From assembly GCA_019828545.1 (NCBI GenBank), contig JACVRA010000161.1, positions 1 through 64,000 of the forward strand: a DNA stretch of 64,000 nucleotides. Direction: 5' to 3'. Made by a program: the position numbers and the translations under genes. The stretch is from Paracamarosporium sp. OC-R06-R3. Taxonomy: Eukaryota > Ascomycota > Dothideomycetes > Pleosporales > Didymosphaeriaceae. The notes beneath the pieces are model-generated. The model searched no databases, was not told the DNA's origin, and saw nothing but the letters and a program-made list of their open reading frames with translations. Shown here one piece after another: positions 31,577 to 62,609 of the stretch; the first letter of the stretch is position 1; each line of letters begins with the position of its first letter.

Positions 31577-31617
31577 TTGCTCCCAGTAGTAATTACCTTG
31601 ATATCATAAATTAAAGT

Positions 31618-34276
31618 TCAACCTGACTCCAACATATCTGCGTATAGGTTCAAAGCGCTGCCGATGACATCGACGATCGCCCAAGTCTGTGCGCCTTTGA
31701 AGATAGTTGCCCACACCCTGAGTACTCCAGCACTCAGACCTTTGGTATATGCTGGGGAGTCCACAACCACATCTGCCGGGAGGGCAAACTCCGTCTCATC
31801 CAGCATGCTCTTGACAATCGAGGTGATCCGGCGTTCATCTTCCGTGACGGGAGGCTCGGGCTCCGGAACAGAGAGCGCCTCTAGCCATTTACTCATCAAG
31901 TAGGCGCATTCTAGTGTGCATAGGGAGTGTTGTATTGACCAGATGAATGACTGCGTCTTGGCTACTAGTCTATAGCCAATTTTGACGGGAATGCTTAACG
32001 CGTGCGCTGAGTGTAGGACAGCTCGGGTGATTTTCGGAGAACGTCGAATGGCAGGCCCAGCTCGAAATGCATTAGCGATCAACACTGGATCTCGTGTATC
32101 CAAAGCTCGACCGGCAGTATCCACGTAGAGGCGTATGTATGCTAGCCGAAGAAGAGCAGTTGAATTAAACGCAACCGGCCCATTTGGGCTCATGGGATCC
32201 AGTGAAGACTCAGGGTTATTCTTCCATCCCGTTTGCCAGTTTCTCAAGGCGTTCTCAAGGGATGACACATCATCTTGGCTAAGCTCTCCTGGTCCGTCAA
32301 ATCGACAACGCACTACTTGGCGGACGAAGAATATGTGCTGAATAAGGGCGTGTATTAGGGCGTAGTTGCCAGCGCTTGAGTTCCATTCTGTTATATCTCG
32401 ACCGTTTCTTGAGAATAACTTTTGTAGAGCATCTTGAAATTGGATTTCTGGAGCACCATTTTTCTTCGCTTCCCGCCAAGCGGATTCACTTGGAGCTTTG
32501 AACTCTGCAGCGCTGCATGGAAGAGTTAATTTGACTTCAGAAGTGAGAATGAAAGGCGGAATGTTATAGACAATGCAATGAAGATTTGAGAATCCATAGA
32601 CAATGAACTTGGTCCGCTTGATCGTTTCGCGGTGTATCCAGTCTTCCCATGATAAATCGTGTCGTAGTGGTTCGTTTTCCAGCCCATCGTCACGGATCAG
32701 GGTGGCTAATACACTCTGAATAGCAAGGGCTTCTCGAAGAATCTCTTTATGTTTTGCCCAGGTACAGAGAGCCATGAGCAGGAGTAAAGCCTGTGCTGTC
32801 TGCATAAGATCTTCTCCTATTGGGACAACGTCCGAAGCGGACGGAAGACCAAGTGGGCCGACACTTGATGGAGCACGCACGGGGCTTCGTGGTACCGACG
32901 TGGCACCTGGCTCGTGTGATGAAGAACGATCCGAGTCGGCTCGACGATGATGCTCGACTAAGCGAGCATCTCTTCTCCGAATACGATGTGTGGCTATCGT
33001 ACGACTTACATTGAACAACTCCACCCCTTTCTCGCCTTCAAAGGTATATTGTGCACCGATTGCGGCAAGGGCAAGGAGAAGTTCGATTGAGCAGCTGTCG
33101 ACTGACATGGTAGGAATGTGTAAGAAAGGCATATGCTCATGGAAGCCGTTGATGTACGCAGCCAAGTACCTACAGAGCGCCAACCGCGTGGGTAATTTGA
33201 AATCACCTGGAATTACGGTTGCAAATTCGTCGAGTTTTTCCACAATCTTTTGTCTGTCGTCTAGGGATAAATCTGAAAAAGATCGATGTCCGTTATGTTG
33301 ACCTGGATCTTCGGGTTGCAATGACGGTAGCCTTGAACCGAAACGGGAAAAGGTATGGCTTTCGTCACCTTGGGTTTGCGGTGCAAGCGTAGAGGCCAAG
33401 GGTGTACTTGCATGTGGAAGGAACTCATTTCCATAACCAAGAGATTCTGGGGAAAAGAATGGCATGGGCTGTTCGGTGTTGATGATGCTCGAAAAGCGGT
33501 ATGAGGCCAAGGGCTCATTATCCCAAAACGCCGCCAGACTGTCTAACGACTCTCCGAGACTAGGGCCGCTGACCTGCGCAACATTCATGTGAACAGTACT
33601 CGAAGGCAGCACAGGTTGTTCAACCGTTTGCACGGTGGAGCTTTGCAGCGGCAGCGAACTTGGGTGGCGAGAGTCGCCGTTCGTTACAGTTCCTTGTGAC
33701 CCCTGCAAGGATTGATATTCTGCCGCCATGGAGAGTGCAGCAAGAGAAAACTCTTCATTCTGACTGTAATGCACAGGCCCAATAGGGGCTGGGTGAGGAT
33801 GCAGAGGCGGCTGCATATCCATGTGAACAGCTGCTGGAGTGGACATCATGCTGGGGATTTCGGGAACGGGCCGGCCAGCATCGAAGCTGGTGCGCATTCG
33901 TTTTGGTGGCCTCGGATCTTGAACAACATATTCGTCGATGGGGGGTTGTTGGTCCTTATTGACGTTGTGCTTATGGTGGGTCAACCGCTCATGCCGGACA
34001 AGGAGATCACTTGAATCATCAGCATGTGACCTGCCTCGGCCACGGGTTATCTTACCTGCGTGTGAACGAGTAATTGCACGCACCGCAGCTGAATGGCTTG
34101 ACTCCGCTGTCTTGGGACCGCATTAACAGAGGTCAGCGTGGGCGTGTGCGCGACTTACGAATGCGCTCATGGCGTTGCAAATGCTCCAAGCGCGCGAAGC
34201 TACGTCCACAGTGATCGCAATGGAAACGTTTCTCCTTCTTCCCCGCGGGCGCTTGTTCACCCGAGCTTGGTTCCAT
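31618..34276 (-). CDS. C2H2 zinc-finger / Fungal_trans transcription factor
   Basis: The start at 34276 gives MEPSSGEQAPAGKKEKR followed by a complete C2H2 finger, FHCDHCGRSFARLEHLQRHE. The first intron (GTAAGT to CCCAAG) reconnects RIH to SGVKPFSCGACNYSF, the canonical H-x-G-x-K-P linker plus a second finger. A GTAAGA...TTCAAG intron then gives RSDLLVRHERLTHH. A large last exon holds a Ser/Pro-rich linker and the Fungal_trans middle homology region (around FKLPTRLALCRYLAAYINGF and HEHMPFLHIPTM). The open frame alone would suggest a false start at 34083 inside an intron. It lies in the middle of the catabolic gene run and is the obvious candidate regulator. Confidence 0.9.
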
Positions 34277-34743
34277 GCGAGCTAGATGAGACGGGCGCTT
34301 AGAGCTTCATTGGCTCAGGTAACAGCGTCAGCATTTCAGACCGACATCAGAGGGTTCTGTGCTCCGTTGGGGATGCCAGACGGTGTTCGGCGAGAGGTTG
34401 GAGGTCGGGGAGGAGGGAGCATCAGGAAAATGCGGAGTGCGGGATGAAAATGCGGAGACGAATCACATGTGGGGGGCGCCACCAACCGTCCCAGGCTTGG
34501 CGGGCAGGAACCCAGAGCTTGCGTCATCAACGAGGCACATATAGGGGCGGAAAGCTTCAAGGTTTGCGAATTAGACATTTTGAGCGGTGTAGTATGGTGT
34601 TGAGCAAGCAGATGCGCGTGTGGGGCTTGCTGACCCGGTATCCAGGTCGCACCTGCCGCTGTTTCATCTAATAGACGCGTCGCTCCTTCCAATCATGCGT
34701 CGCGACTGCCAGCTTCAAACTACCCATCCGATCTACGCCCGAC
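34277..34743. other. Upstream region of the C2H2 factor
   Basis: This region contains the factor's promoter and leader, plus the 3' end of the decarboxylase-like gene. The open frames here overlap on both strands and show no domain. Confidence 0.45.
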
Positions 34744-35196
34744 CTATGCCCGCTCGCTCTTGTTCCCTAGCTCTCGCGGCATCTCACCCTTCTCTGCCAT
34801 GTCATTCAGCACCTTTTCTGCCGTCTTCATTGCATCTACGCCAGCTGGCACACCGCAGTATGTCGTCGCGTGAATGATGGCTTCGCGTATCTCGAGTTCG
34901 GACAAGCCATTGTTGCGAGCACCGCGGATGTGGACCGCCAGCTCTGGTGCCCGGTTCAGCGCCATGAGCATGCCGATGTTAAGGAGGCTTCTTTGCTGCT
35001 TGCTGAGACCTGGTCGAGTCCAAGCATAGCCCCAGCACCATTCGGTTACGATTTCTTGTCCTGCTCGTGAGAAGTCGGTTGAGCCATTGGCAAGAGCGCG
35101 GTCGACGTATTCCTCTCCTACGACGCTACGACGCATCTTCAAGCCCTCGTCAAAGAGCTGCTTGTGTAGCTCATCGTATTTTGGGTCGGTCGACAT
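34744..35196 (-). CDS. Carboxymuconolactone decarboxylase-like protein, copy 1
   Basis: This single-exon gene encodes 150 residues. The CMD/AhpD-like helical fold is recognised from [40 protein letters not shown] and [20 protein letters not shown]. The His and the CGxPAG turn occupy the usual active-site position of gamma-carboxymuconolactone decarboxylase. The length equals that of the bacterial single-domain enzyme. In the beta-ketoadipate pathway this reaction yields an enol-lactone, but many fungal members have other substrates. It sits between the cluster regulator and a hydroxyacid dehydrogenase, both on the same strand. Confidence 0.92.
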
Positions 35197-35505
35197 GACG
35201 GTAGTGATGCGTACGAAGTTTCTCGGTGAAGTCTAATAGCTACCAAGAGCTTAGGAGATGGGTGATATCGAATGCGAGTACGAAGGAAAAAACAACGGGT
35301 GTCGAAGTATTTGGAATCTGGGAACATGCCCCAGGAAAGGGCAGGACATTTCACATGGGCCGGCATCGGTGTTCTCTTGTTGGGGATGCCCCTCATTCTA
35401 CCCCTCTTCTCCAACGGATGCAGCGTTGCGTCACCATACAAGCAGGTGTGGAAGAAACGGAACCGTCACTGATCACATGTCGCATTCCACGACGAACAAA
35501 TTACT

Positions 35506-36522
35506 TTACGATCCATTTGTCTCTGGCAGCCAGTCTTCGTCCCCACCAAGGTATCTGTACACTACCCTAGAGTCCAAATCACGACAGCTGGGGTCTTTGC
35601 TGGCACCGTCATATGTCTCAAAACCCACCTCCCCCAGCACATTCTTAGATCCGACACGCTTTGCCATGTCCACGGCCAGACCGAAATCTTTACGCATCAA
35701 TTGTACCTTGAACCCCTGCTTGTACCCGCCCGAGGATGGCGCCTCAGGATACACGTGCGGCACAGGGCAGAAGCGGTCACATATGGTGTTTTGCGCGGTT
35801 CCTGCAGCGTACACTTTGGCCAGTGTACGGGGGTCAAGGCCAGATCGCATACCCATGTCGAACGCTTCTGAGCAGGCAATAGCGATTACACCTGAGAGAT
35901 AGTTGTTCGACAGCTTTGCAGCAAGTCCCAGAGAAGGACCACCACAAGGGATGACCTGCTTTCCCATCATTTCCATCAGCTCTGTGAGCCTCTTGATGTT
36001 TGGATCCGACTCTGCGCAACCCAAGAAAAATGCTATTGTGCCTTTGATAGCGCCCACAACACCTCCGCTGACCGGCGAGTCGTAGAAGGATGCGGTAGGA
36101 AAATGTGTCTCAATATGTTCTTTGACATCCAAACTGGTCGCTGTGTCTATTGTCGAGCAATCGATGAGCAATTTGTTCGAGATATCCGCACTGCAAATGC
36201 CATTCGACGTGTCGAGGTAAACCGAGCGAACATGCGAGCCTTCGGGCACCATGGTGATGATCGTGTCCTGTCTTTCTGTTAGTTGGGTCATCTGACGAAC
36301 AGATATCTTGCTTACAGTTTGTTGTGCGACGTCCCTGGCGCTCGAGGCTTTAAACACCGTCTTTGGGTATTGTGAGCAAATTTCATCCATCGCCTCATCT
36401 ACGACATCGAACACGTATATCCGCGATTCGGCTGGAAGCTTGTTTGCCAGATGTACCAGCATAGGTTTGCCCATCGCTCCTAGGCCGACGAAGCCTAATT
36501 TGCTGAAGTTGGATTCGCCCAT
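35506..36522 (-). CDS. 3-Hydroxyisobutyrate dehydrogenase-like enzyme, copy 1
   Basis: This beta-hydroxyacid dehydrogenase starts MGESNFSKLGFVGLGAMGKPM at 36522 with the Rossmann glycine motif. The substrate-binding signature is FYDSPVSGGVVGAIKGTIAF, and the catalytic Lys/Asn region is AAKLSNNYLSGVIAIACSEAF. A 48-nt intron at about 36314-36267 (GTAAGC to AGACAG, with ACTAAC) is in frame and without stops, so naive translation adds 16 false residues (VSKISVRQ...) between QQT and DTIITMVPEG. The mature protein is about 322 residues, normal for the family. It is paralogous to the gene at 39321-40357. Such enzymes oxidise hydroxy-acids or reduce semialdehydes with NAD(P). Confidence 0.92.
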   Translation of the reverse strand: MGESNFSKLGFVGLGAMGKPMLVHLANKLPAESRIYVFDVVDEAMDEICSQYPKTVFKASSARDVAQQTVSKISVRQMTQLTERQDTIITMVPEGSHVRSVYLDTSNGICSADISNKLLIDCSTIDTATSLDVKEHIETHFPTASFYDSPVSGGVVGAIKGTIAFFLGCAESDPNIKRLTELMEMMGKQVIPCGGPSLGLAAKLSNNYLSGVIAIACSEAFDMGMRSGLDPRTLAKVYAAGTAQNTICDRFCPVPHVYPEAPSSGGYKQGFKVQLMRKDFGLAVDMAKRVGSKNVLGEVGFETYDGASKDPSCRDLDSRVVYRYLGGDEDWLPETNGS

Positions 36523-36827
36523 GTTGATTGCAAAATGTCAGACAGGTACCGTCACTGATTTGCAAAAGTATAACGATATTTTGCGCTCTGCTGGAGACGA
36601 AAGCACCTTTCGGGACAGAAATGACTCCCAGTCAACCTTCTCCGCCCCACACTAGCTAATACTGCGTAGTCGTCATGGCGGGGTAAGCCTCCAAACAGCC
36701 CTTGGGGTAGCTCGATGTAGAAGGCTTGGCACGGTGTTGCTCAACCCATTCCTATGGATGTTTCTGCATGGTTCAGGATCATTTGTATTATGGACAGCTA
36801 GAACGCATGATTGTCTAGACACTAAAT

Positions 36828-37879
36828 ATGTCTTCATCCATTCTGGTCGAACAGAGAGGGCCACCATCTCCGCCGCCCGACAGATCAACAGTCTCGGTCC
36901 ATGCGCTATCAGCTGGTCACTTCACACTTCCCGAATACCAATTCGTGCACCCAGTCTCAAAAGAAGCGCGAAAGACAGTTCCTTCGCTGGCTTTTCTAAT
37001 TCAACATCAAGACGTCCAAACGGGCAAGCGTACGCGTATCGTGTTTGACTTGGGCTTGAGACGAGACATCAACAGATATGCTCCTGCAATACAGAAACAC
37101 ACGACAACGCGCCAGCCGATGACCACGAATCCGGATGTAGTCGAGAGCCTCGCACGAGGCAGGCTAACACCTGAAGATATCGACTACGTTCTCTACTCGC
37201 ATGTAGGTAGACATTCGCATTCATCCATTAATATTACTAATACTACCTGAAGATTCACTGGGATCACATTGGCGAGCCACGAGATTTCCCCTCCTCTGCA
37301 TTCGTAGTCGGCCACGGTGCATTTGCTCTGCTAAATGGCACATCTTCAGCATTGCGTGGTGGACACTCGTTCTTCGAAAGTGATCTCCTTCCTGAAGGAA
37401 GGACTATCGAACTATCACAGCCTTGCAGCCATGGAAATGCTTCATATAAGCCAAACGCAGATCAGAACTACGGCAAGATCGACCTATCTCGACCATGGAA
37501 ATCATACAAGCACCTCCCGCATACACTCGACGTCTTCAACGATGGCTCGCTTCTGATCGTAGATGCACCGGGTCATTTGCCTGGTCATGTGAATATCCTT
37601 GCCCGAGTATCCGACACGCAGCAGATCTATTTGGGAGGCGACGCCTGTCACGATAGAAGACTGTTGACGGGCGAAAAGCAGATTGGGGAGTGGAATGATG
37701 CCGAAGGGCACGTATGCTGTATCCACGCCGATAGGAAGGGGGCTGAAGATACGATAGAGCGGATCAGACTTTTGGAGAAGGAAGGTGTAGAAATCATATT
37801 TGCGCACGATGTAGAATGGGAGAATGACCCTGCGAACAAGGCTCGCTTTTTCGGTGCGGACAGCGTCAGTGGAACTTAG
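36828..37879 (+). CDS. Metallo-beta-lactamase-fold hydrolase (lactonase-like), copy 2
   Basis: Exon 1 is 36828-37202 and exon 2 is 37253-37879. The intron (GTAGGT to CTGAAG) splits the zinc motif itself, and splicing restores YSHIHWDHIGEP. The product has 333 residues. Shared features with copy 1 are IVFDLGLRRDI, TVPSLAFLIQH, VDAPGHLPGHVNILA, LGGDACHDRR and IFAHDVEW, so the two are clearly paralogues. Copy 1 has no intron. The expected activity is lactone or ester hydrolysis with two zinc ions. The neighbour downstream on the same strand is a second CMD-like gene. Confidence 0.92.
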
Positions 37880-38221
37880 CGAGTTTACAACGCTTCAGAG
37901 TTAGATCAATCCTGTTCCGCGTCATTTGCTGGTTGGAACTATCTCCGTGTTTACACCAGCAGTCACTACCCCTAGCTAATGTTTCGTTGGAGAAGGATGT
38001 CTGGATCGGAATAGCCGCTACTTCCGGCTTCCCCGCTCTTGGTTTGGAGATTGTGGGGCACGCATCAGCACCAACGGCCTCTCCCCATCCCTCATCCGCC
38101 AAGCCCTACCCCTCTGCAATTCCATCGCGTACACCTCCACACAGACCTCATCTACCTACACGCAAGCTAGACCTAATCCAGACGATTCCTCTCCCTGCAC
38201 TCTGTGCTACGTCTCGACAAA

Positions 38222-39207
38222 ATGAGCCACTCCCAGCGTCCACCCGCATACTCCATTCTTTCCACACCGCCAGACATGTCCCTCACACCGGAGCAACAAA
38301 GTCTGAAAGAGCGTTTCGACGCCGAGCTGGGCCTCGATGCGTTCGACACTCCGTGGTCACGCCTCCTTAAGCACAGTCCCGAAATGTTCGCAGCATCGCT
38401 GCGTCTAACCGCCGTGCCAAAACGAAAAGGCCACCTGAGTCCAAAGATCCAGTCCCTAATATCTCTCGCTGTAGCAGCGGCGTCGACGCATCTCCACGTC
38501 CCCAACATCCAACGGTACACAAAACAAGCTCTCACCAACGGCGCGTCCAGGGCTGAGATTGTGGAGGTCTTATGCTTGACGAGCACGCTGGGGATTCATG
38601 CTTGTAATATCGGTGTTCCACTATTAGTAGAGGTTCTGAAAGAGGAGGGAAGGGAAGTTCAAAGTGGGATGGAGGGAATGAGTAAGGAGCAGTGGGATTT
38701 GAAGGAGGACTTTGAGAAAAAGCGGGGGTATTGGCATGCGTTTTGGGAAGACTTTTTGAGACTGAGTCCTGAGTTTTTTGGTGCGTATGTGGAGTTTTCG
38801 TCGGTGCCGTGGACGAACGAAGGGGGCGCCGGGGTGCTGGAACCAAAGGTATGTCGATTCTTTGTCTTGTCTTGATGTTGTGGAAAAAAAAAGGTGAACT
38901 GTGTATTGTGCACTCGGGCAGTCACGGCCCACAGTCAATCACCAAGTCTCAACGAACTACTCGATCACTGCAGCATATTATATGGAGGCTAATCTGCAGC
39001 TAGATCAAAGAGTTAATATACTGTGCATTTGATTGCGCAGCGACGCACTTGTATCAACCGGGGCTGAAGCTGCACATGAAGAATGTGCTAAAATACGGGG
39101 GGACGCCGGAGGAGATTATGGAAGTACTGGAGCTAGCATCTCTGCTGAGCATAAGCACAATGGACGTCGCTTTGCCCATTCTAGAGAAAGAGCTGGCAAG
39201 TCAATAA
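38222..39207 (+). CDS. Carboxymuconolactone decarboxylase-like protein, copy 2 (two-domain)
   Basis: Exon 1 (38222-38848) and exon 2 (39004-39207) join through a GTATGT...GCAGCTAG intron, LEPK to IKELIYCAFDCAATHLYQPG, giving 276 residues. Two CMD/AhpD-like repeats are visible. The first has ISLAVAAASTHLHVPNIQRY, then SRAEIVEVLCLTSTLGIHA. The second has LIYCAFDCAATHLYQPGLKL, then TPEEIMEVLELASLLSISTM. The protein is about twice the size of copy 1 and only distantly related. Such tandem-domain members are common in fungal clusters and their substrates are mostly unknown. The exon 2 acceptor was chosen because only it restores the conserved KELIY segment. Confidence 0.88.
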
Positions 39208-39320
39208 ACAATGATACCAATTTCCCAAGCGCAGCTTTTCTTGATCTTCGCATATGTACACATCAGAGATCCTTGCATCGATAATTGAGACTATCTATAT
39301 GGCTGCACAGGTATTGACGC

Positions 39321-40357
39321 TCACTTCTTCTCGCTTTCATTCAACCACTTATACACCACCCTCGCATCTTTTCCCTTGTACCTCTCATCCCCCATCGCCT
39401 CACCAAACGCCTCTAGCGTAGGCTTATCCAGAATCGTCCGCGCACCCACCATATCCGCAAGCTCACTTCCCATCTTTAGCACCTTGGCACACAGCTCTAT
39501 CCTGAACCCTCCCTCATAGCCTCTCGAGCTCGGGACATTCGCCTGGATGCCAGGCACGGGATTACTCTTCGACGTGACCCAGCACTGGCCTCCACTCACG
39601 TTAATAACGTCCGTCAACAGCGCCAGATCGAGACCCATTTTTGAGCCGATGTTCAGCGCTTCCGACGCCGCGAGCGACGTGATAGCAGAAAGGTAATTGT
39701 TGATGACTTTGAAGGCCGTCCCAGCTCCCACGTCCCCACACAAAAACACGGCGTCTGCCTTGCCCATGTGCGAGAGGTATGATTTCACCGTTGGAAACAC
39801 GTCTTTGTTGTCTGTGCCCACCATGAAGGTCAGCGTCCCGTCTTGCGCGCCCATGGGGCCTCCTGACACAGGCGCATCGACGAATGTTAGTTTATCGGCA
39901 ACACTACTTTCTTTTGTACCCTTCGCGACTTCTAGTATCGTTGTTGTTTCAATGGTACCGCATTCCATTATAATTTTCTCAGCTCCGCCATCTTTGATAG
40001 CTTTCTCTGCGCCGGCGATAACGCCCGTGGTGGGATTCAGATAGACGTCTTTTACGGCTGCGGAACCGGGAAGCATGGTGATCACTGTGTTTGCGCGTTG
40101 GACGGCCTCGAAGCCGTTGTGGATTGTTTCTACGGGGCCGAGGTTTGAGGTGTCGGTGTGAAATTTTTCGAGAGCGGAAGGAACGACGTCGCATACTAGG
40201 AGCTTGTAGTCGGAAGATAGGCCTTTTCGAAGATTGATGGCCATGGGGTAACCCATTACGCCCAGACCTGGTTCGTAGCATTAGCACGGGGCATGAAGAC
40301 GGGGGAGAGTCGGTGCGACTTGCCTATGAAGGCTACTGTTCTATCTGGAGACGACAT
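39321..40357 (-). CDS. 3-Hydroxyisobutyrate dehydrogenase-like enzyme, copy 2
   Basis: The start at 40357 encodes MSSPDRTVAFIG, interrupted by an intron whose donor reads G|GCAAGT, so it is a GC-AG intron, with acceptor CCAG. Splicing restores the Rossmann motif FIGLGVMGYPMAINL. Further signatures are FVDAPVSGGPMGAQDGTLTF and FKVINNYLSAITSLAASEAL. Length is about 325 residues. It is a distinct paralogue of the gene at 35506-36522. The family interconverts beta- or gamma-hydroxy acids and semialdehydes. The neighbours (lactonases, CMD-like proteins, permease) suggest a shared degradative route. Confidence 0.92.
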
Positions 40358-41048
40358 GACAGTCTGAAGTGAAGTAACAGCAATGCAATGGTAGTTTGTT
40401 TCACGGCAAACACCTGTGAGTAGGTAGTTTGTTGGCTGGTAGGCAGTGTTGATGTTTGACCCAAAGCAGCGCGCTATGCAACTCGGTCATGTCAAACAAA
40501 GCGGAATAATTTGGGTGTACGCCACTTAGTGGTTTTTGGGGAAATCCAAGCGCCAAATTGGTGTTCTGTCCTTCCGTGACACCGATCAGCATAGTAAACT
40601 CCTCATCTGACGACCCCGCATCTTCTCCCCCAACCTCCACATTCTCCAATGCGGAGATCTGTAGCTTCGACCAATCAGCCTCGCTTTCAGCTGAGCTCGA
40701 ACTAGGCAGTGCATTCTTGTTTTCTGACTCGTTTCTTCGGTTGTGAAGACGAAGATAGGTTAGACAGTGATATTTCTCCTTTTATTTGGAGAAGCGGAGT
40801 AACGCGCAAGGATGCCACTCCTCGTCAGTGACGATGCAAAATGACGGTGTGAGACGCTAGGTACCCTGGACTACACCCCGCTTTTTACTGGCAGGAAACG
40901 GGCGTCCATGCCGGGCGTTCGGGTCGGGCGTTCTGATAGCACGGGCAACGCATCAAAAGTCTGCCTTCACCGCAAAGTACCTTCTCATCACGATCCATCT
41001 CATCACCCTATCTACCCATCGTCTTCCCTTCGTTAAATTTCCGTCTGT
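40358..41048. promoter_or_regulatory. Divergent promoter region, dehydrogenase copy 2 / permease
   Basis: About 690 bp separate two divergent start codons. The last part before the permease start is pyrimidine-rich. Short frames here have no recognised domain, and no specific operator can be assigned. Confidence 0.4.
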
Positions 41049-43084
41049 ATGACTTCTCCTACTATGGTTGATATGGTCGACCCAGAGAAGAAAGATCCTC
41101 GCGACGTCCTCTCCCTCGCCGAAGACGAGAAAGAGAGACAAATACACCGGGAGTACCTGCAGCAAGATGAGTCTCCCGCAGAAATTGAGGCACGCAAGAA
41201 GGAAGCTGCGTTAGTGAGGAAGTTGGATACGTTCATTGCTCCGGTGATGATGATGCTCATGTTGATCTCGTACTTGGATCGAGGGAATATTGGCTTCGCG
41301 GCGACACAGGGTAAGCAATGCCAGGGTACAGAATGGTGGCTCATGCTAGCCATTGTATGGAACTCTCAGGCTTTCCACTTATGTCTGAGATTTGCAGACA
41401 TTGAGAGCTGGCTAAGAAACCTACTTTTACCCACTGCGTTGATGTTTGAACATTATACTGACTTTGTACCCCACCTTTAGGTATGACAGAGGACATTCAT
41501 TTGAAAGGAACAGAGTTGAATGTGAGTTTTCTTTCTGGAATGGACGTGATCAGAGAGGCTGACGAGGCATAGACTGCGGTGTCCGTGTTTTACATCTTTT
41601 ACATCCTGGCCGAGGTAAGAGCAGTTAACAATCCATATACGTTATAGAAGCCCTGATTTCATCTGGTTCGGGGCTACAGATTGATATCTCTACGCACCTC
41701 CTATTATATGATTTGGGCATTATGGGTTATCTAACACACCGCACAGTTCCCAACGTCCATCGTCGTAAAGCGCCTCCAGTTCAACCGCGTTATTCCAGCC
41801 ATCACTTTCTGCTGGGGCATCATGTGCATGTGCACAGGCTTTGTGCAATCCTTTGGCGGTCTTGTAACCACACGCATCTTCCTTGGGTTCTTTGAAGGCT
41901 GTCTGTTCCCATCCATGACACTCTTTTTGTGCAACTGGTCAGATAACCTCTACCTATCCTTTCAAAGGTCTCTTTGCTAACTCTTTCATGTGTAGGTATA
42001 CAAGAGAAGAGCTAGGCATCCGTGTCGCCTACCTGTTCATTGCCTCTGCACTTAGTGGTGCCTTCGGCGGCCTTATCGCCCTAGGTGTGTTATACATGGA
42101 CGGCGTAAACGGATGGTCAGGATGGCGCTGGTACGTCCCTTACCTCTTTCTTCTTTACGTCTCCCTCTAACAATAACCCTATCCAGGCTCTACGTCATCG
42201 AAGGCCTCATCACCATAGCATGGGCCTTCGCCTGCATCTTTCTGGTACCCAAAAACTACGAAACGGCATACTTTCTCAACGCTTCCGAGAAAGCCATCAT
42301 GCGCAAGCGGGCCGAGCGTGCAGAAGCATACTCGGGCGGAAACGGGCACGTGTCTAAAGCCGACATCAAAGAAGCGGCCAAGGACATAAAGAGCTGGTTT
42401 CACGGATGTATTCAGATCGCTGTTGTGACCATTCTGTACGGATTCGGCACGTTCTTGCCCATTATTATCAAATATGGGTTCAAATATTCGACGCAGCAGG
42501 TAAGACTTTTCCCTAGACGAAACGGCGCAATTGATGCTAATGACGATCAGGCGCAATATCTCGTCGTACCGGTGAATCTATGGGGCGCGATTGTGTACGC
42601 TGTTGGAGCGTACTTGTCCGACCGGTATCAAACGCGCTTCCTCCCCATGATTATCTGCGCTCCCGTAGGCATAGCCGGGTACGCAATCCTAATTGCGCCC
42701 GTCAGCGCTGGAGTGTTGTACTTCGCAACCTATCTTGTTGCGACTGCATGCTTTCTTTGCACTGGCAGCAACATCACGTGGTTATCTGTGAATAATGCGC
42801 CGGATGGCAAGAGAGCTGCGTCCATGGGCATTCTATTGACACTCACGAACATTGGCGGCGTCGTCAGCGGGCAGATATATTATACTGGTGCGGCACCGCG
42901 GTACATATTGGGGCATGCGTGGAGCCTGGGGTGTTTGACGTTTGCATGGTGTGGTTGGTGGGTTGTTCGAGCTATTTACAAGCGGAGGGAGGCAGAGAAA
43001 GACAGGATGTTGGCTGAGGGGTATGTCAGGCCTGAGGGAACGATGTATACGGATCGCGAGCCCAATTTCCGATACCAGATATAG
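41049..43084 (+). CDS. MFS permease, Dal5/Tna1-type (anion:cation symporter family)
   Basis: This is a major-facilitator transporter of the allantoate/nicotinate permease group, which imports organic acids and vitamins across the plasma membrane. About seven exons are inferred. Exon 1 ends AATQG. Splicing restores GMTEDIHLKGTELN, then TAVSVFYIFYILAE, FPTSIVVKRLQFNRVIPAI, and further on YTREELGIRVAYLFIASAL and LYVIEGLITIAWAFACIF. Family signatures are MLMLISYLDRGNIGFA in helix 1 and GFFEGCLFPSMTLFL. The C-terminal half has SDRYQTRFLPMIICAPVG and NAPDGKRAASMGILLTLTNI. The predicted length is about 500 residues with 12 helices. It closes the catabolic gene run and would supply its substrate. Confidence 0.92.
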
Positions 43085-45780: not shown

Positions 45781-47114
45781 ATGGTAGGTTACGAATCCTG
45801 GTCATTCTCTTATTTTCATTCTGACTGATGGACCAAGAGCGGCATTGTTGATCCTACGGGTCAGGTATGATACAGACCTCTCCCTTGGAAATTGATGGGA
45901 CTGACAGCTAGGAGTTTCCTCCTGGTTTCCTGGAAGAAAGCCGGGTACCCCAAATCATTGCCGGCAATGCAGTTGTGCAAATTTCTGGCTGCATTGTGTT
46001 CTTCGCCCGTGTATACTCCCGGGCTGTTTTAATGGGCACATGGAAAAGCGAAGATTGGGTTCTGTCGGTAGCGTGGGTAAGTACGAGATAGTTTTGGATG
46101 CCTATTCTTGCTGATGCCATTTCATAGCTGCTGGCCACAGGGTACTCGATTTGTCAATATGGTCAGGTCAGCCATGGATCCGGACGCCATCTCGCTGCAA
46201 CTCCTAGCATGAACGATGCCATCACATCCCAAAAATACGCGTTCGCTGCGCAAGTCTTTCTCATCCTCGGCATTCCTATGCCGAAAGTCAGCATGTGCAT
46301 TTCATACCTGCGAATATTCTACTCGGATGTACTCGGTCGGCGCCTCATCTATGGCCTGCTACTTCTGCTGGTGCTGTTGATGGTACCGTTCTTGATCGAG
46401 AACTTCTTCACTTGCCAGCCGCTAGAGCTGTACTGGGAGGAGCTGCGACCGGCAGACAAATGTCTTCAAGATGGTGCAACATTCTATATCCATGGAGGTC
46501 TGAACCTAGGTGTCGATGTTGCTTTGATGGGTATTCTTATTCCACGGATCCTCAATCTGAAACTCAACGACCGACAAAAGTGGACACTCATCAGCATTGT
46601 GCTAGTAGGATCACTGGCTGTGGTTGCAGGGATTGTGCGACTGGTGCGCGTGGGCACGACACTGAACAAGGCACACAGTGCGACGGAGCGATTCGACCCG
46701 CCGTGGGATATGTACGACGTATCCGTTTGGACGTCGACGGAAATCTACGTGACGCTTATCTGTGCGGCGGCGCCGGGCGTAAAGCCACTCGTGAGCAAGC
46801 TACTACCCAAACTACTAGGAACAACACTTCGCAGTCGGACTGCAACCTCCGGTGGGCATACGAAAGGGATCGAGTTGACGCCCAAGATGAAACGATCCAC
46901 GCTCGGGACAAGTCACTCGGTGCTGAGGGGCAACAGCACGACGAACCTAACGTCGGCTCATGGGCCATACTCGGAGATCCACAGCCTGGGAAAAAACGAT
47001 GATGAGAGCTTGGATGGCAAGAGTGACATAGACGGAAGAGCAAGCCGCATGCGATTGGAAGATGGCATAATACGAGACACGGAAGTAGTAATAACGTCGG
47101 AGGAGCGCGTCTAG
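45781..47114 (+). CDS. PTH11-like integral membrane receptor (rhodopsin-domain), copy 1
   Basis: Fungal PTH11-type proteins are seven-helix receptors at the cell surface. Exon 1 may consist of the ATG alone (45781-45783), followed by a GTAGGT...ACCAAG intron. Exons 45838-45864, 45912-46076 and 46128-47114 then join in phase 0 to 393 residues. After splicing the reading is SGIVDPTGQEFPPGFLEESR, then VVQISGCIVFFARVYSR (helix 1), TWKSEDWVLSVAWLLATGYS (helix 2), LILGIPMPKVSMCISYLRIF and NFFTCQPLELYW, a characteristic PTH11 motif. The polar C-terminal tail has many Ser/Thr sites. The single-codon first exon is unusual and the least certain part of the model. Confidence 0.85.
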
Positions 47115-50107: not shown

Positions 50108-51522
50108 TCAGCGCTCCTCGGCTTCTATCTCTTTTGAAATATCCATCTCCTTGGACGTCGAATCTATCTCTCTTGTCGAGCCATCCGTATCTCTCGCAGG
50201 ATCGACCTCGCGCGACTCCACGTTGGTACTCATTTTAGAGTCCTTCCTTGACATGGAGTCCCGTTTCATTACCGCTTGGAAGTCGGTCCCGCCGATGCTC
50301 CGGAATGCCATGCCCTCTTCGAGCTCGCGATCCGACGAACAGCTACTAGGGTCCTCGGGGAAGACCCGGTTTTGGATTTTGGAGAAGAGCCGAGAGATCC
50401 AGGTGTCTGAGAAGATGGGCCGGAGGACGGGAAGGCAGCAGGCGATGAGGGCGGAGCTGATCTCAATAAGACACCACATGACGACTTTGGTGTTCTCTCT
50501 TATAAGATTTGTATGGCCGCGTTTGGTATCTGGAGAGCAGTTAGTACTCTAGTGTCGGTCGGGGATCAAGGGTCTAGTAAGTACCGTATGCATCTTCCCA
50601 CATGATGAACACGCGCGACGCCGCTGCCGCGGTAGACATGAAGCCCAGCGCAAACACACCCACAATCTGGACCTTTCTCCAGAAGGTAAAGTTCATTTTC
50701 CAGATCATCACAAGGGGCGCCATCAGGATCAAAACGTCTATGAACAGGTCGGAAAAGCACAGCGCTACGTTAATCCCGCCAGTATCGTTACAGTACTTCC
50801 TTATAGTTTCGACCGTTGTCCAATATGCCCAGGGTCTCGTCCCGCACTGGAGAACGCTCGCGCAGACGAAAGCGAGCGCCCACACAACCAGGAGCACGCA
50901 TAGCCCGATGGAGTAGTAGTGGAAAAATCTACTAATGTGGAAAACGCGGCGGTAGAGAAATATGACGCTGAGTTTTATCGGTGCGAGCGCTACGACCGTT
51001 ATGATGGGGACAATCCATGAATACTGGTTTCTCGGTTAGTATACCGATTTCTTGGGATGCATCCGAGTGGGTTGTCTAACCATAACGTTGGGGCCTTCTC
51101 TCCATGAACGTATCATCTCGCCGGTTTCGGGATCGATATGGGAGTTTCCTCCGAAAAGGTGTTTCCTGGTTCCTTTGTCGATTTTTAGCAGTGATGTGGT
51201 GAGTACGTGGTGCAGATCTTACCATGAAGAATGACGCCTGTTACGCCCCATAGGCCGATCTTCACCACATTATTAGCATAGTTGATGGTAGAAGGAAGAC
51301 AGAACGATTCAATTGGAAAAAAGAACTTACCAGGCCAGCAAGCGCAGTCCAGTCGTCAACACTGAACTTCTGCTTCTTCATGTTGCGGACATAGAAGCGG
51401 GCGCCAACAGCCAGGCTCGACAGGGCCGGCAAAACGCTGCAAAGCACGAACATCCCCGCAGCGTTGGTTGACATAGCTCGTTGCAATGCAATTTGTAGTA
51501 AACTTGCAATGGAGGGGTGCAA
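50108..51522 (-). CDS. PTH11-like integral membrane receptor (rhodopsin-domain), copy 2
   Basis: A second seven-helix PTH11-type protein, not closely similar to the one at 45781. The start at 51522 gives MHPSIASLLQIALQRAMSTN, then helix 1 (MFVLCSVLPALSSLAVGARF) and the conserved FSVDDWTALAGL. Later exons give YSWIVPIITVVALAPIKLSV, LYRRVFHISRFFHYYSIGLC and VCASVLQCGTRPWAYW, the typical QC..RPW segment, then NVALCFSDLFIDVLILMAPL and FMSTAAAASRVFIMWEDAY. The last exon ends with a long Ser/Asp/Glu-rich cytoplasmic tail. At least five introns are implied, some with approximate borders. Its proximity to the RiPP-like locus could be chance. Confidence 0.85.
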
Positions 51523-52836
51523 CTGTGCCAGATGGGTGCGTTCGCGCGAGTAGGCCAGGGCACTTGCGGTGTCCGAAGAGTTTATCTAGCACAGACACTA
51601 CACACGAAACGATGGAGCAGACAATGAGAGAGAATCCTTCGCTGGGACCGGCTCTAGCACTGGGTCTCGCATGGCAGGCAAGTCTTTGCGTGTTGGACGA
51701 CGACCGCTTTTGACAATGACCAACACGGCGAGGGATGCTGACCCTTGGCCGATTGCGGGGCCTCGCAGTAGAACCAACCGTCTGCTAACGCACACTGGAG
51801 TAGGCATACGACGCCACCGAACAGCATGGTGGCGCTGCGCATCTCGATCGTAGGCGTGCTCGTGTGGTCGCTGCGCTTGGCCGCAAGTGTCCCGTGGTGA
51901 ACGCTGCGTGGCCCGCGATTGGTGGAGGCGCTTGGTAGACCGCCGAGAGGGCCCCCAACGGCGCCGGGAGGATGGGTGACGACTTGAAAATCAGGCGCCG
52001 AAAGACTCCATAGGGCTGGGCGCCTCGCTGTGCCTCAAACGTACGTGCGATCGGCCTCGTGGACGCATGTACACATCACCAGTAGCGCATCCACGAGACA
52101 GATATTCAGGGTCTTCAGGGTCCAGCAATGACCACCATCTTGCAGACTCAGCATTTTTGCCGGGAGAGAGGGAAGACGGCTCCAGAAGCACTCCCTGCAG
52201 TCATTCCTGACCAGACCAGCCACCCGCGATCCAAAATCCCCACACGCAGGCGCACGCATGCAGCTGAGCTGATACGAAGAGCTAGTGATAAGGCACGTGC
52301 CGTCTATTCGTCTATTCTATTTGTCTAATGCTGATTATATGAACAATGCTGAACAACCGCAAACCAGTAACACCCTCGATGCAGAAAGTCTAAGCCCATC
52401 AATGCAAAAATCTGTCTCCCGGCGGCGTAACTACACCCCGCCATGTCATGCCATGCCATGCCATGCTATGCAAATGCAAGTCTATCTTTCTCTATCCGCG
52501 AACCAAGAAATGCCGCACGCAATGCCAAAATAGCAAACGATAAAGAAAACCGGGAAAATGCAACGAAGAAAAAAAAAACACCGCCAATGCGTCTAGTCTA
52601 TATGCTGGTTTGTCTATAGCTCCAATGCAAATGCTCGTTCGCTCGTTCGCGCCGTTAAGTGCTGATGTGAGAACTTAATCAATCAATGAAATCTGTATGT
52701 ACTGGGTAAATGGATGGTTGATGAGAAAATCGGACGTCGGAGCCGGTGGGTGGCGCATATGTACAATCCTACGTCCGTCTGTCACTAAATGACGAGTGAC
52801 GGTGGCAGTGACGCTGAGTTGTTTCGTGAAAGGTAT
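51523..52836. other. Intergenic region between receptor and repeat precursor
   Basis: This is 1.3 kb without a recognised gene. It contains the 3' flank of the peptide precursor and a CATGC-type microsatellite (listed separately). Short frames have no support. Confidence 0.5.
52440..52471. repeat. CCATG/CATGC pentamer microsatellite
   Basis: About six imperfect copies of CCATG (CCATGTCATGCCATGCCATG and on) lie 370 bp downstream of the precursor stop. No function is implied. Confidence 0.85.
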
Positions 52837-53547
52837 TTACAAGCCAGAGAGGTCGGCGGCTTCGCGTTTGAGGCCGGAGAGGTCGGTGGTGGAACGCTTA
52901 AGGCCAGAGAGGTCGGTGGTAGAACGCTTCAGGCCGGAGAGGTCGGTGGTGGAGCGCTTGAGACCGGAGAGGTCGGCTTCCCTCTTGAGTCCTGAGAGAT
53001 CGGTCATGGAGCGCTTCAGACCTGACAAGTCGGCAGTGGAACGCTTCAATCCAGAAAGGTCAGCGGCATCGCGCTTCAGGCCTGACAGGTCAGAGGCATC
53101 TCGCTTCAGGCCAGATAGATCAGCCTCCCTCTTGAGCCCGGAGAGATCCGTAGTAGAACGCTTCAAGCCTGACAAGTCGGTGGCTGAACGCTTGAGCCCG
53201 GAGAGGTCGGTGGCGGCTCTCTTCAGTCCACTGAGGTCGGTAGTCGAACGCTTAAGCCCAGAGAGGTCTGTGCTTGAACGCTTCAAGCCGCTGAGGTCGG
53301 TAGTCGAACGCTTCAATCCACTGAGGTCGGTGCTGGACCTTTTCAATCCGCTGAGATCAGTGGATGATCGCTGGACGAGCTCCATGATCCACCGCTTGAG
53401 GCCAGATAGGTCTGTGCTTGACCTTTCCTTCAACCCAGAAAGGTCTGTGCTTGAACGCTTCAATCCAGATAGATCGGTGCTTGAGCGCTTCAATCCACTA
53501 AGATCGGCAACAGCCGGATCAGCGTCCCGCTTGAGACCTGACAGGTC
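52837..53547 (-). repeat. In-frame DLSGLKR-coding tandem repeat array (about 30 bp unit)
   Basis: The array has 23 units of mostly 30 bp (27 bp where the spacer is Glu-Ala). One unit carries a 3-bp addition turning LysArg into LysGluArg, and one a 24-bp insertion. Units differ at many silent positions: Ser is written TCT, TCC, TCA, AGC or AGT, and Leu and Gly codons also vary, while the encoded pentapeptide is invariant. Confidence 0.9.
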
Positions 53548-53658
53548 CCTCTCTATTTGTGAGGCTGCAATAGATTCGTATTCCCACGCGATAGGAGCAG
53601 CAGTAACCTGGAGCGCCATGCTCAGAACGACAGTAGCGGCAGCGAATATGGAGCGCAT
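52837..53658 (-). CDS. Kex2-processed repeat precursor, candidate RiPP (23 x DLSGL)
   Basis: This is a 273-residue secretory precursor with start ATG at 53658; an upstream in-frame ATG at 53712 would bury the signal peptide. Residues 1-21 (RSIFAAATVVLSMALQVTAA) form a clear signal peptide. After a short proregion ending SQIER come 23 copies of DLSGL. Twenty-one are followed directly by Lys-Arg, one by Lys-Glu-Arg, and the last by the stop codon. Three-residue spacers vary: SST, STT, AAT, SAT, STA, SMT, DAS, DAA, EA or EAA. One copy is followed by an eight-residue insert, WIMELVQR, ending in Arg. Kex2-type cleavage in the late Golgi and carboxypeptidase trimming should release many near-identical peptides of about 5-8 residues. 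There are no cysteines. A divergent UstYa-like gene lies 1.4 kb away, so a cyclised or oxidised RiPP is plausible. A linear signalling peptide is the alternative. Confidence 0.9.
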   Translation of the reverse strand: MRSIFAAATVVLSMALQVTAAPIAWEYESIAASQIERDLSGLKRDADPAVADLSGLKRSSTDLSGLKRSSTDLSGLKERSSTDLSGLKRWIMELVQRSSTDLSGLKRSSTDLSGLKRSTTDLSGLKRSSTDLSGLKRSTTDLSGLKRAATDLSGLKRSATDLSGLKRSTTDLSGLKREADLSGLKRDASDLSGLKRDAADLSGLKRSTADLSGLKRSMTDLSGLKREADLSGLKRSTTDLSGLKRSTTDLSGLKRSTTDLSGLKREAADLSGL

Positions 53659-55069
53659 ATTGACAAGGGATGTAGTGATAAGCCTGTAAGATGGGAAAAA
53701 CGCAGATCGCAAAATGTGATCTTCAGTGGTGTGAGCTGGGCAGTGGCGAGGCAGAGTTGGCTATTGCGTGGACCTGTGTCGTTGGTCTAGATGCGTTGGA
53801 GGCGTCGTATTAAACCTTATTGCTGCGAATGATGCTGATCTTGTGGTGATAGTTCGTGATGCTCGTTTTCAGACGAAAGCGTCACAGTATATGTATACAC
53901 AATATCGGCCATTGAACACGCTCGTCTACTCCACTCTGAAGTTCGTCAAACGACCGGTTCCCTATGACGGTGGCCGTACGGGCTCCACGAGCTCGATTAT
54001 TTTCCACGGGCACTATCGTCGTCGTCGCGAAGGTTAGCATGCATCGGTCAGACTACCAGTTGAGAAGCCTTGATGTGGCTTCGCGATCTTTGTCAGAATC
54101 CCCGTGATGCTGTGGCACAATCCCAGATGATGGGCACCGGGATTCGAGTGATAGTCGGTCAGGGTGTGCGCTGAGCGCGGACGCCATATAAATTTCGGTC
54201 CCCGAACGCCAGGCTAACGGCTTTGGGCTGTTCTTCAATATGCACGACATCCCCTCGTGCGCACGGCAAAATCAACATCCATCTCGTCTATTGTAGCAGC
54301 TGCGTGCTGACGTATTTCCTTTTTTATCTTGGCTCGTGTTGGTTCGATCGACAATCGACGATCTGTTCCTCAGTTTACGCGGTGTGCAGACGCGTCTCGT
54401 ATTGCTCCAGCCACTCTGCAATTGCATGTGTCATGGTACCATGCTTTTCGCAATCCTTTCCTCCTGATAACGGTGTGCCGTTGCCCCGCATAAGACATCC
54501 TTACGGACGCCTCAATCCTTACACTAGGTACCCGTTCAAAAAGCCAGAATCCGCGCGCTTCTAGTAGACGCTGTCCGGTAGATTTCCGAAAGGAACATTA
54601 ACGTACGAAGAGCGTTCGGCAGGTCACATTAGCGGTCCTCATCGCTTCGCGGCAAACATGCTTGGATCGAGGCGACGAGTATCGTTCCACGAGTTGATCA
54701 CCGCGGCAGGAAGATATCCCTGCATGCCAGGTACAAAACGTGGGTGTAGATAAGATCCGGGAGCTCGGGCCCTCCGAGTTGGACCAACATACTTACGATG
54801 GACTGCCCGTTGGCGGTGCATATGTTCCTCCTCAACATCGAAATTCCCTATATGCACGTATAGAGAGCTGGTGGTGTATGCCTGAGTTTGTCCCGGAGGA
54901 TTCGAACAACAACAGACACGCTGAAGCGACGGGATCTGAAGAAGACGTGGATGCCACCTTCCGAAAACTAACACAGGTGGATACTTAGTATAGAGGTGTA
55001 TTGTGAACATCTTCTTTACCTTTGTCCTCATCATCAAATTTCCCACTCAACTTTCTTACCATCATCAAT
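53659..55069. promoter_or_regulatory. Divergent region between repeat precursor and UstYa-like gene
   Basis: These 1.4 kb hold both promoters of the two RiPP-locus genes. Close to 55070 the leader is a long pyrimidine-rich tract (CTTCTTTACCTTTGTCCTCATC), typical of well-expressed fungal genes. Open frames at about 54601-54988 on the plus strand (including SELDQHTYDGLPVGGAYVPP) are unassigned. They could be an exon, a gene remnant or chance. Confidence 0.4.
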
Positions 55070-55986
55070 ATGGATCGTCCTTCAGAGAAGCGTTCTTTCG
55101 AAAAATTGTCCCTCGATGGGTCCTATGACGATGATCAGGGTTCATCAGTGCAGTACGATGTGTCTGAGGCACTGTTAGGGGCGTCGGACTCACACAGGGT
55201 CTCCCACAGAAGATCAAAGTCTTGGAGATCCTGGATGGTAATCAACTCCACGAGGATCTTTTTAGGGATTGCTCTCATCATCATTGCGGTCGAGAGTATA
55301 TGTATTGTCGAAGTCCAACGGCGAGCAAATGCTCGCATGCGTGGCCCGAGTATGTCACCACCAACAAACACAATGTTCCGCACTCACTAATAAATCCCCA
55401 GCGGGCGTGAGCCATGAGCGTACAGTCCCGAGAACGATCTATGCGCACTCAAAGTACATGTCCAATGACGAGGAGGTGGCGTCAAAAGCATGGGATGAGA
55501 TTCTCGCCGGCCATGGAGTGATTGCTCTTGATGCCGATTATGTTGCAGAGAAGAAACTCCCACCGAGCGTACCTCTCCCAGATGACAGTGGAAACTTCAT
55601 GTACGTGATTGAAGCGTACCATGCAATGCACTGCACCGTAAGTCTTTCCAGCTCAGAGAATTACACTCTCACTGAAGCATTTTTAGAAAGTCATTCGTGA
55701 ACATTACATCTTGATGGAGCAAGGTCGTGCCTGGAATTGGTCCCGTCCGCATGACATGCATTGCTTCGACGCACTGCGACAATATATCATGTGCAACGTT
55801 GACGATACGATTCTTTGGACAAATGGCCACAGAGAGACAGGCCATGGACAAGAGAAGAAATGCAATGATTGGGATGCACTTCGGGACTATGCAGAGTCCA
55901 AGTCGGCCAATTACTTCGATGTTGAACCAGAGAAAGGCATTATGCATTTGGACAACTACCATGCTGGCGATGGATTGACTTGGTAG
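55070..55986 (+). CDS. UstYa-like oxidase (DUF3328), putative RiPP-modifying enzyme
   Basis: Three exons (55070-55349, 55402-55637, 55687-55986) with canonical introns (GTATGT to CCCCAG with CTAATAA; GTAAGT to TTTTAG) give 271 residues. There is a cytosolic acidic N-terminus, then one membrane helix at about 61-81 (TRIFLGIALIIIAVESICIV), then a lumenal domain. Both family motifs are present: YHAMHC (H167, H170, C171, spanning the second splice site) and PHDMHC (H194, H197, C198). UstYa/DUF3328 proteins catalyse oxidative cyclisation, hydroxylation or related steps on Kex2-processed peptides of the ustiloxin, phomopsin and victorin type, and on some non-ribosomal peptides. The nearest gene is the DLSGL-repeat precursor, transcribed divergently. 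No frameshift is seen. This is a single UstYa copy; known clusters often carry two or more. Confidence 0.93.
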
Positions 55987-57226: not shown

Positions 57227-59207
57227 CTAGCCTATCAACCCTTTCCTGTCTGTATGCTCCGAAAGTCGATAGTTCTTGAGCATGAACACCCAAAGGAAAC
57301 TAGGTACCCAAGCGCAAGTACCAACAATGACCATCAACCTCTGCGCATCGCCGTATGCATGAACAAGCGCTTGCCTTTCTGGGCTCTCCCATGGAAGAGC
57401 AAGTTGTACTGGGAGCGAGGCGTAGATCGACGTGGTCTGATTCTTGGATGCTTCTGGCAGATACTGCATTAGCCTTGTAGGAACAGTCTGCGTCCAGATC
57501 GCGGCCGAGATAGTCTGACCAACTGATCCTCCTATAGACGTTATCATGCCTAGCATTGCGACAGCAACAGCAACGTTCTCGTGAGGCACAGCCGCCATGA
57601 CCGCAAGTTGTTCGATCATGACAAGAGAGCCACCAAACATGCTGCCAAGAACCTCGACCATGACCAGAAGACCGATAGCGGTGTTTGGTTGTCGGAAATG
57701 TATCATGAGGCCGGTCAAGAGCATTTGGATCGGGACAATAATAACGGCGAACCACTTGAAGCGATCGGTGTACTTGAAGACGAAGGAGATTATGACGGCC
57801 CAAGCGCAGCTGACGATATTGAAGATGTTGGTGATGTAGCCGGCCTTGGCAACGGAAAGCTGGAAGACGACCTGTAGATACGAACCGAAGTACATCTTAT
57901 ACGAGCTTCTAAGTTTAGCTAACGTTCCTTTCGCTTTCTGGGTCAATACTCACTAAAAGGCGACCCATGAATTGCAACCCAACATACAAGCGGCTACAAC
58001 GGTTCGATTCGTCATGAGATGGAAAGGAAAGAAGGTTTTTGGAGCCCAAAATCGCTCCCAGGCAGCGAAGAGCGCGAGTGAGACTAAACCAAATACGATC
58101 ATGCATATGATCATCGGCGACTTCCATCCATCTGTCTGGTATGCAGCAAGACTGAAAGGCAGCAGAAATATTGAGAAGCCACCGCAGACCAAAAGAAGAC
58201 CGATTACTTATGAGATGAGCTTGAGCCATATGCTAGTGGAGTTTTGACTCACCATCAAATTCAATGCACCAGTGTCTGATGCTCTGTAAAAGAGTACGAC
58301 CGCTCTTCTCCCTAATCATTACGCCTTTCTTCTCTGCTCTTCTCGACATGATGAGGAATATAGTCCAGAACGGTAAGCACATGAATGGCGTAATTATGGC
58401 AAATGCACCATAACCCCACCTCCAACTGACTTTGTCTAGAAATGTCTGACCCAGTTCTGGTCCGGCAAAGGTGTTGCATATGTAGGGTGTCGACGTGAAT
58501 GCAAGCCAGATTGCGCGGTTCTTGAGCTTGGAAGTGTCTGCAATGAAGATGTCAAGCACATATTTCATACCGTTCATGCCGGTCCAATAGAAGACTTGAG
58601 CTGCACAGTAAGTTTGCACATTTTGGCAGACAGCCATCAAAATCAAGGCTACGAGTGGTTAGCGAAGCATGACTTAGGAACTTAGTTTCGTACAAAGAAG
58701 AACGCTTATGAGGCATAGTATGAAGCCCTGCGGACGTCCAACGAGATCGATAAATTTAGCGAGCGGTAGCTTCGAGATGCCCCCAATAAGATTGGCTACA
58801 ATGCCAGTTATTCCAGTCAGTCCATGCAATAGAAACTCAGACGTGACATATGGCGTCCACGAATAGTTTGATTGCTGCTGGAGTGAGTCGGTAAAACTGA
58901 TCAACCAAATGCTATAGCCCATATTAGCCTTGTACATCAAGGCCACTGTCCATGATCGATATACTTACAATATATACGCTGCGATGAGCCACTCTTTTGT
59001 CCAAACTAGAGTGATAGCTTCCATCTTCTTCAACCCGATGGGCTGGTTCGAGTCGATCGATTCCATATCTTCGGGTTTCTGGGGCAGGCTTTCGCTGTCC
59101 GCTTTAGGTTTCTCCATCACGGTGATTGTCTTGTCCTTTCCATCATGACTTTGTGTGACGGACGAGTCCACACCTTGAACATGAGGTACCGTCCCAATTG
59201 AGGCCAT
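57227..59207 (-). CDS. MFS transporter, siderophore-iron transporter (ARN/SIT/MirB) family
   Basis: A 14-helix-type major facilitator of the fungal siderophore transporter family. The start at 59207 gives a polar cytosolic N-terminus, then MEAITLVWTKEWLIAAYI. Later exons give WLISFTDSLQQQSNYSWTPY, the family block SKLKNRAIWLAFTSTPYICN followed by FAGPELGQTFL and WRWGYGAFAIITPFMCLPFW, then RTVVAACMLGCNSWVAF and QVVFQLSVAKAGYITNIFNI. The end is the conserved YRLSEHTDRKGLIG. About six introns are implied. Known members import ferric siderophores, and a few export small molecules. Being the nearest transporter to the RiPP-like pair it might move the peptide, but iron uptake is the default reading. 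Confidence 0.9.
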
Positions 59208-62222: not shown

Positions 62223-62609
62223 ATGTACTCCTTCATCACCCTCACCACCCTCTTCGCCGCCGCTCTGGCCGCCCCCGCCAGGCAGGCTCGCCAAACTCTC
62301 CCAACTCTCAACTTTGCTGTCTCCAACGACGTTTCCGGAGCACAAGTCGGCAGCTCCATCCTTGCCGATGGCAACGCTGTTACCTTCAGCCATGTCTTCG
62401 CCGGCACGGCTCTCGACCGCGACGGTGCCATCATTGCTACCAGCATCCAGTCAACCTCGAACGGCGCTGGAATCTTCTGCATCATAAATGATGGCGAAGG
62501 CAACCAAGTTGGTCTCTTGAACGAGCAAAAGACCTTCGTCGACTTGGATGGCCAGGAGGGCGCCGTTGAGACAGACGTCAGTGCTTTCACGCTCCTGTGC
62601 GAGGCATAA
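62223..62609 (+). CDS. Small secreted protein, 128 aa, candidate effector
   Basis: From the ATG at 62223 the protein starts with a signal peptide (YSFITLTTLFAAALAAPARQ), then a short basic proregion (ARQARQ) and a compact domain (LNFAVSNDVSGAQVGSSILA, TFSHVFAGTALDRDGAIIAT). There are two cysteines, one in AGIFCIINDG and one in the last residues TLLCEA, which may form one disulphide. The upstream open frame reaches 62070 but the extension lacks a signal peptide. No family is recognised by name; the fold looks beta-rich. Its size, secretion and lack of enzyme motifs fit an effector-like or cell-wall protein, without proof. Confidence 0.8.
   Translation: MYSFITLTTLFAAALAAPARQARQTLPTLNFAVSNDVSGAQVGSSILADGNAVTFSHVFAGTALDRDGAIIATSIQSTSNGAGIFCIINDGEGNQVGLLNEQKTFVDLDGQEGAVETDVSAFTLLCEA

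Follow-up and report, generated by a model that had tools for sequence, protein, structure and literature searches.

A 23-copy DLSGL repeat precursor divergent from a UstYa oxidase gene: a probable dikaritin-type RiPP locus in Paracamarosporium sp. OC-R06-R3

In the genome of Paracamarosporium sp. OC-R06-R3, a pair of divergent genes probably represents a dikaritin-type RiPP locus, in which a Kex2-processed repeat precursor would supply 23 DLSGL cores to a UstYa-family oxidase. We put the probability of this reading at roughly three in four. Both genes lie within a stretch of 64,000 nucleotides (contig JACVRA010000161.1, positions 1 to 64,000), which is called the window here. The locus is best filed under a known kind, the RiPPs of UstYa-linked Kex2-processed repeat proteins (KEPs), with an unusual all-aliphatic core, and on present evidence it does not represent a new family. 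A reading made from the sequence only had proposed such a new RiPP family, which is too strong, since dikaritin loci are already known to combine a UstYa gene with a KEP in this way and these precursors are highly diverse, 2,560 of 7,878 surveyed KEPs having no homolog (PMC7329392).

The precursor gene (52837..53658, minus strand) is a single intron-free open frame with its ATG at 53658 and its stop codon at 52837-52839. It encodes 273 amino acids, comprising a signal-like N-terminus, a leader and 23 DLSGL repeats. The putative signal peptide MRSIFAAATVVLSMALQVTAA, judged by eye, covers the first 21 residues (53596..53658, minus strand) and is followed by a leader of 16 residues. The repeat array (52840..53547, minus strand) occupies nearly the whole length of the protein, with KR and short variable spacers between the cores. 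Here, KR directly follows 21 of the 23 cores, KER follows one and the stop codon follows the last. Re-reading of the open frame reproduced exactly the coordinates and counts of the sequence-only reading (23 copies, 21 followed by Lys-Arg), and a signal-like start and a short leader, both described there, were seen as well. The commonest spacer ahead of the cores is S-[ST]-T, the others being DAS, DAA, EA and EAA. Two linkers are irregular, the KER and an insert ending in QR; this insert, WIMELVQR, is present in one unit, and apart from it the array contains no Phe, Trp, Tyr or His. On DNA level, TRF reports a period of 30 bases in the array.

A Pfam scan of the precursor protein gave no match, and the protein is probably disordered. 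A match to the NCBIfam pentapeptide-repeat model (E 4e-4, 20.4 bits vs. a cut-off of 125) was taken as chance. On the plus strand, a 297-codon open frame (52796-53689) overlaps the array antisense and is most likely a mirror of its codon usage.

The array is not a product of chance. In five rounds of residue shuffling, none of 25,255 ORFs satisfied the strict repeat test, and a degenerate DNA pattern for DLSGLKR, with serine codons restricted to TCN, gave 16 matches in the 43-Mb genome, all 16 of them within the array, and 0 for the reversed control. The 23 cores have one protein sequence and 23 distinct DNA versions with a mean nucleotide identity of 0.71, and both serine codon families are used. 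If the 72 observed changes from the core consensus are scattered randomly, at most 7 of the 23 copies retain the peptide (20,000 trials). The identity of 23 cores from 23 DNA versions therefore points to selection acting on the DLSGL peptide. Of the 23 units, 17 have regular linkers; among these, the amino acids of the spacers differ (pN 0.30) while those of the cores do not, and the core pN of 0.12 arises solely because intermediate steps between synonymous codons are counted. The KR codons after the cores differ synonymously as well. No paralog of the precursor protein was found in its own 43-Mb genome.

UstYa oxidases are the class-defining enzymes of the fungal dikaritin RiPPs. Divergent from the precursor, and absent from the sequence-only reading, a UstYa (DUF3328, PF11807) oxidase gene is located at 55070..55986 on the plus strand (exons 55070-55349, 55402-55637 and 55687-55986; 271 aa). 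Pfam assigns it to PF11807 with an E-value of 4e-26 and 92.7 bits (cut-off 25). The spliced protein contains both HxxHC motifs, HAMHC and HDMHC, and two such motifs are the criterion for UstYa proteins (PMC12048977). Furthermore, one hydrophobic segment is visible by eye. No solved structure related by sequence to the UstYa protein was found, the single match (E 0.47) being chance-like. The two genes are arranged head-to-head around a common upstream region of 1.4 kb (53659..55069), and this neighbour strengthens the Kex2-type multi-copy precursor design already proposed from the KR sites.

Across 1,461 strains, UstYa genes peak beside such repeat precursors (PMC7329392). Nevertheless, a UstYa gene alone proves little, since polyketide and NRPS clusters make use of DUF3328 proteins, too (PMC12048977), and since no repeat precursor was detected at 14 of the 28 UstYa loci read in this genome. 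The assembly contains 75 UstYa exon matches, one of which (at L028) is under the Pfam cut-off; these were merged into about 54 genes at 47 loci. The 28 loci read are the window and 27 others, each covered over 10 kb or up to the end of its contig. The strict repeat test revealed a KR-delimited repeat precursor at 11 of the 28, after two of its 13 rows (L002 and L016) had been removed as overlapping frames of arrays already counted. The strict test took the place of a less stringent KEP search, which let through too many shuffled ORFs (703 of 25,590). A two-copy repeat test gave 9 further rows, compared to 9 in 30,415 shuffled ORFs (five rounds). Three of these were kept by eye (L003, L022 and L023) and six were removed (window 28446-28562, other frames at L009 and L015, L016:8195-8821, L019 and the second piece at L028). 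In total, 14 of the 28 loci read carry a repeat precursor, 11 by the strict test and 3 by the looser one with inspection by eye. No further strict KEP was found in the rest of the window and the 20 kb beside it (L029 and L030, UstYa-free controls).

The layout of these loci is recurrent. A head-to-head orientation with a UstYa gene is observed for 13 of the 14 precursors, or for 12 when the count is restricted to the nearest UstYa gene. The chance of 13 of 14 is 6e-6 if one in three is expected and 9e-4 if one in two is; the corresponding values for 12 of 14 are 8e-5 and 6e-3. The gaps of the divergent pairs range from 0.9 to 3.7 kb, measured between the ends of open frames and exon matches, so that an intervening gene is possible in some pairs. 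The regions within 1.5 kb of the about 54 UstYa genes make up only some 0.5% of the genome. The DLSGL/UstYa pair thus belongs to a series of loci built alike, which gives good support to a connection between the two genes, and the recurrent head-to-head arrangement may serve as a practical rule for locating such precursors. No significant common promoter motif emerged from the 13 divergent regions, the best of the 16,081 8-mers tested having a p of about 5e-5, and no CGG-N-CCG spacing was clearly enriched in them. The nearest UstYa paralog by E-value, C112, shows 39% identity, and the 1.9 kb of sequence read on its upstream side contains no visible repeat precursor.

The set of this genome is unusually large, with 14 repeat precursors linked to UstYa genes at the 28 loci read out of 47; KEPs of all kinds, counted by criteria other than those used here, average 5.25 per ascomycete strain (PMC7329392). 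The repeats at other loci include WYDLTYID (L002), QYHGKNVVK (L005), TYAPLVYVGGL (L009), DSDDIWLW (L012), FAPWYRATNILPASD (L013) and FPTWI (L016). The repeat YVWAS at L015 matches a motif named in PMC6339444, so at least one other precursor of the genome is of a known type. Further, L003:6823-7272 (plus strand) has Cys-containing repeats of the CTRDLDARACAWSKYV type and a single KR/RR site, and a UstYa gene is divergent from it. At L022:2574-3374 (minus strand), a secreted-looking protein with seven DPLAMM/DPLALM repeats, mostly without KR delimitation, is divergent from a UstYa gene at 1.5 kb; it is possibly a UstYa substrate that is freed by a different protease.

Among these precursors the DLSGL core stands apart. 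Phe, Trp or Tyr occurs in the repeat unit of every one of the ten other strict precursors of the genome. Of the looser ones, L003 contains both Trp and Tyr, L023 resembles the di-His type and the repeat of L022 is DPLAMM. The sequence-only reading was right in calling the core aromatic-free, yet Tyr-free cores are already known as a minority: among the 7,878 KEPs surveyed, Tyr is present in 65.6% of the UstYa-linked repeats, Trp in 20.5% and di-His in 5.7% (PMC7329392). A core without Tyr, Trp and di-His is a minority compatible with these published figures. The conserved motifs that PMC6339444 names do not include DLSGL. The statement of the sequence-only reading that no described product has this core was compared with literature text only, where DLSGL gave three irrelevant matches and longer variants gave none.

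The route by which such a product could arise follows the known systems, and we infer expression, cleavage and oxidation of the precursor, as well as its product, from the two genes. The signal peptide would carry the precursor into the ER/Golgi, where kexin would cut after KR and a Kex1-like S10 carboxypeptidase would strip K and R, with the spacer at the N-terminus (STT, SST or EA) either trimmed or retained. If every KR is cut, 16 of 22 predicted pieces are 8-mers such as STTDLSGL and two are EADLSGL; removal of EA from the latter by a Ste13-like dipeptidyl peptidase could leave exactly DLSGL. The calculated [M+H]+ values of the unmodified peptides are 504.266 for DLSGL, 605.314 for TDLSGL, 779.378 for SSTDLSGL and 793.394 for STTDLSGL. 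The genome contains one P-domain (P_proprotein) match for kexin (E 1.9e-28), and for trimming peptidases 3 DPPIV_N and 19 Peptidase_S10 matches (counted exon by exon). The membrane-bound UstYa protein would then oxidise the peptide, and the product would be secreted, perhaps via a nearby MFS transporter. Since aromatic side chains are missing from the core, only the aliphatic Leu, Asp or Ser would be available for the oxidation, which could be a hydroxylation, desaturation, chlorination or the formation of an ether cross-link. UstYa proteins have been reported to form ethers, to hydroxylate and to chlorinate (PMC12048977), as well as to desaturate residues (PMC10512285).

Dikaritins comprise ustiloxin, phomopsin and asperipin-2a, and in wider use also the epichloecyclins and victorin. 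Their original definition included a tyrosinase, a methyltransferase and a peptidase and was later relaxed, and Tyr in the core for ether macrocyclisation is typical, not universal. The DLSGL locus shares with the dikaritins a secreted-looking multi-core precursor, KR sites and an adjoining UstYa gene, and a single UstYa as at this locus is also found for asperipin-2a (PMC7329392). In contrast to dikaritins, its core is devoid of Tyr or any other aromatic residue, and no tyrosinase, methyltransferase or peptidase was recognised among the 19 window sequences (a subset of the ORFs) that were scanned with Pfam. Both points speak against the dikaritin reading: the core lacks the Tyr that is used by the characterised cyclisations, and the locus as recognised in these 19 sequences is minimal.

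The criteria for KEPs are secretion, at least 3 repeats, dibasic sites and at least 15% of the protein covered (PMC6339444). The DLSGL precursor resembles KEPs in repeats, KR sites and coverage, and in secretion as judged by eye; its 23 repeats are a high number, yet inside the published range of 3 to 129, the second largest being 38 (PMC6339444). With the non-Tyr UstYa-linked KEPs, that is the di-His and Trp types, it has in common a Tyr-less repeat and a UstYa neighbour, whereas unlike these types DLSGL is also without His, Trp and Phe (PMC7329392). The Kex2-site layout and the X-A dipeptide spacers of some units resemble ascomycete alpha-pheromone precursors. The precursor differs from these in two respects, its UstYa neighbour and its core without an aromatic residue, as alpha-pheromones carry Trp.

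This likeness raises the alternative that Kex2 frees short, unmodified peptides with a signalling or pheromone-like activity, the UstYa protein serving another substrate or being incidental. A precursor design common to alpha-pheromone precursors (PMC6339444) would fit, as would a core without an aromatic residue for the known cyclisations and EA spacers suited to dipeptidyl trimming, for which the three DPPIV_N matches are candidates. Still, only three of the precursors annotated as pheromones are accompanied by a UstYa gene (PMC7329392), and an incidental neighbour agrees poorly with 13 of 14 repeat precursors in head-to-head orientation and with the mere 0.5% or so of the genome that is as near to a UstYa gene. 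A linear peptide is considered unlikely.

A secreted structural or surface repeat protein, which coats the hyphae intact or as peptides with the KR sites being secondary, is a clearly weaker proposal and very improbable. The array indeed takes up nearly the whole protein, and the imperfect linkers KER and QR mean that cleavage may be incomplete. On the contrary, KR is retained after 21 of 23 cores with synonymous codon variation, a UstYa gene is the neighbour and the core is much shorter than the hydrophobin-like repellent peptides. Least probable of all, and close to negligible, is a functionless low-complexity expansion or an annotation artefact: slippage does create tandem repeats and the 30-base period would be in line with it, but the cores have diverged in their DNA to a mean identity of 0.71 while the protein remained identical.

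Within the preferred dikaritin-type reading, the chemistry is a separate matter. That the UstYa protein acts on a wholly aliphatic pentapeptide by a Tyr-free modification, e.g., an ether or a C-C bond linking Asp/Ser to Leu, or an oxidised Leu, is a tentative and rather doubtful proposal. If this were true, the result would be a dikaritin-like product with a scaffold apparently undescribed for the class, of which five members had been reported as of 2022 (PMC10512285). A two-gene pair with 23 all-aliphatic cores would represent a clean test of UstYa chemistry without an aromatic ring.

An MFS transporter gene (57227..59207, minus strand; MFS_1, with TRI12 above cut-off) is convergent with the UstYa gene; it is a possible exporter of the product and an uncertain member of the cluster. 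A HAD-like hydrolase gene is located to the right of it. To the left of the precursor, a histidine-phosphatase (phytase-like) gene is present, with genes for rhodopsin-like membrane proteins of fungal type (PF20684) on both of its sides (46128-47114 and 50574-51585). No RNA genes were found in the window. At 62223-62609 (plus strand), a small secreted-looking protein is encoded, which has no Pfam match in its reading frame. Farther to the left, the region 29138-43084 contains paired families, namely two metallo-beta-lactamase-like ORFs (the second, 37241-37879, assigned by eye), two CMD ORFs, and two NAD_binding_2/11 dehydrogenases, together with an ADH, a Fungal_trans regulator and an MFS gene; it looks like a catabolic cluster with internal duplication.
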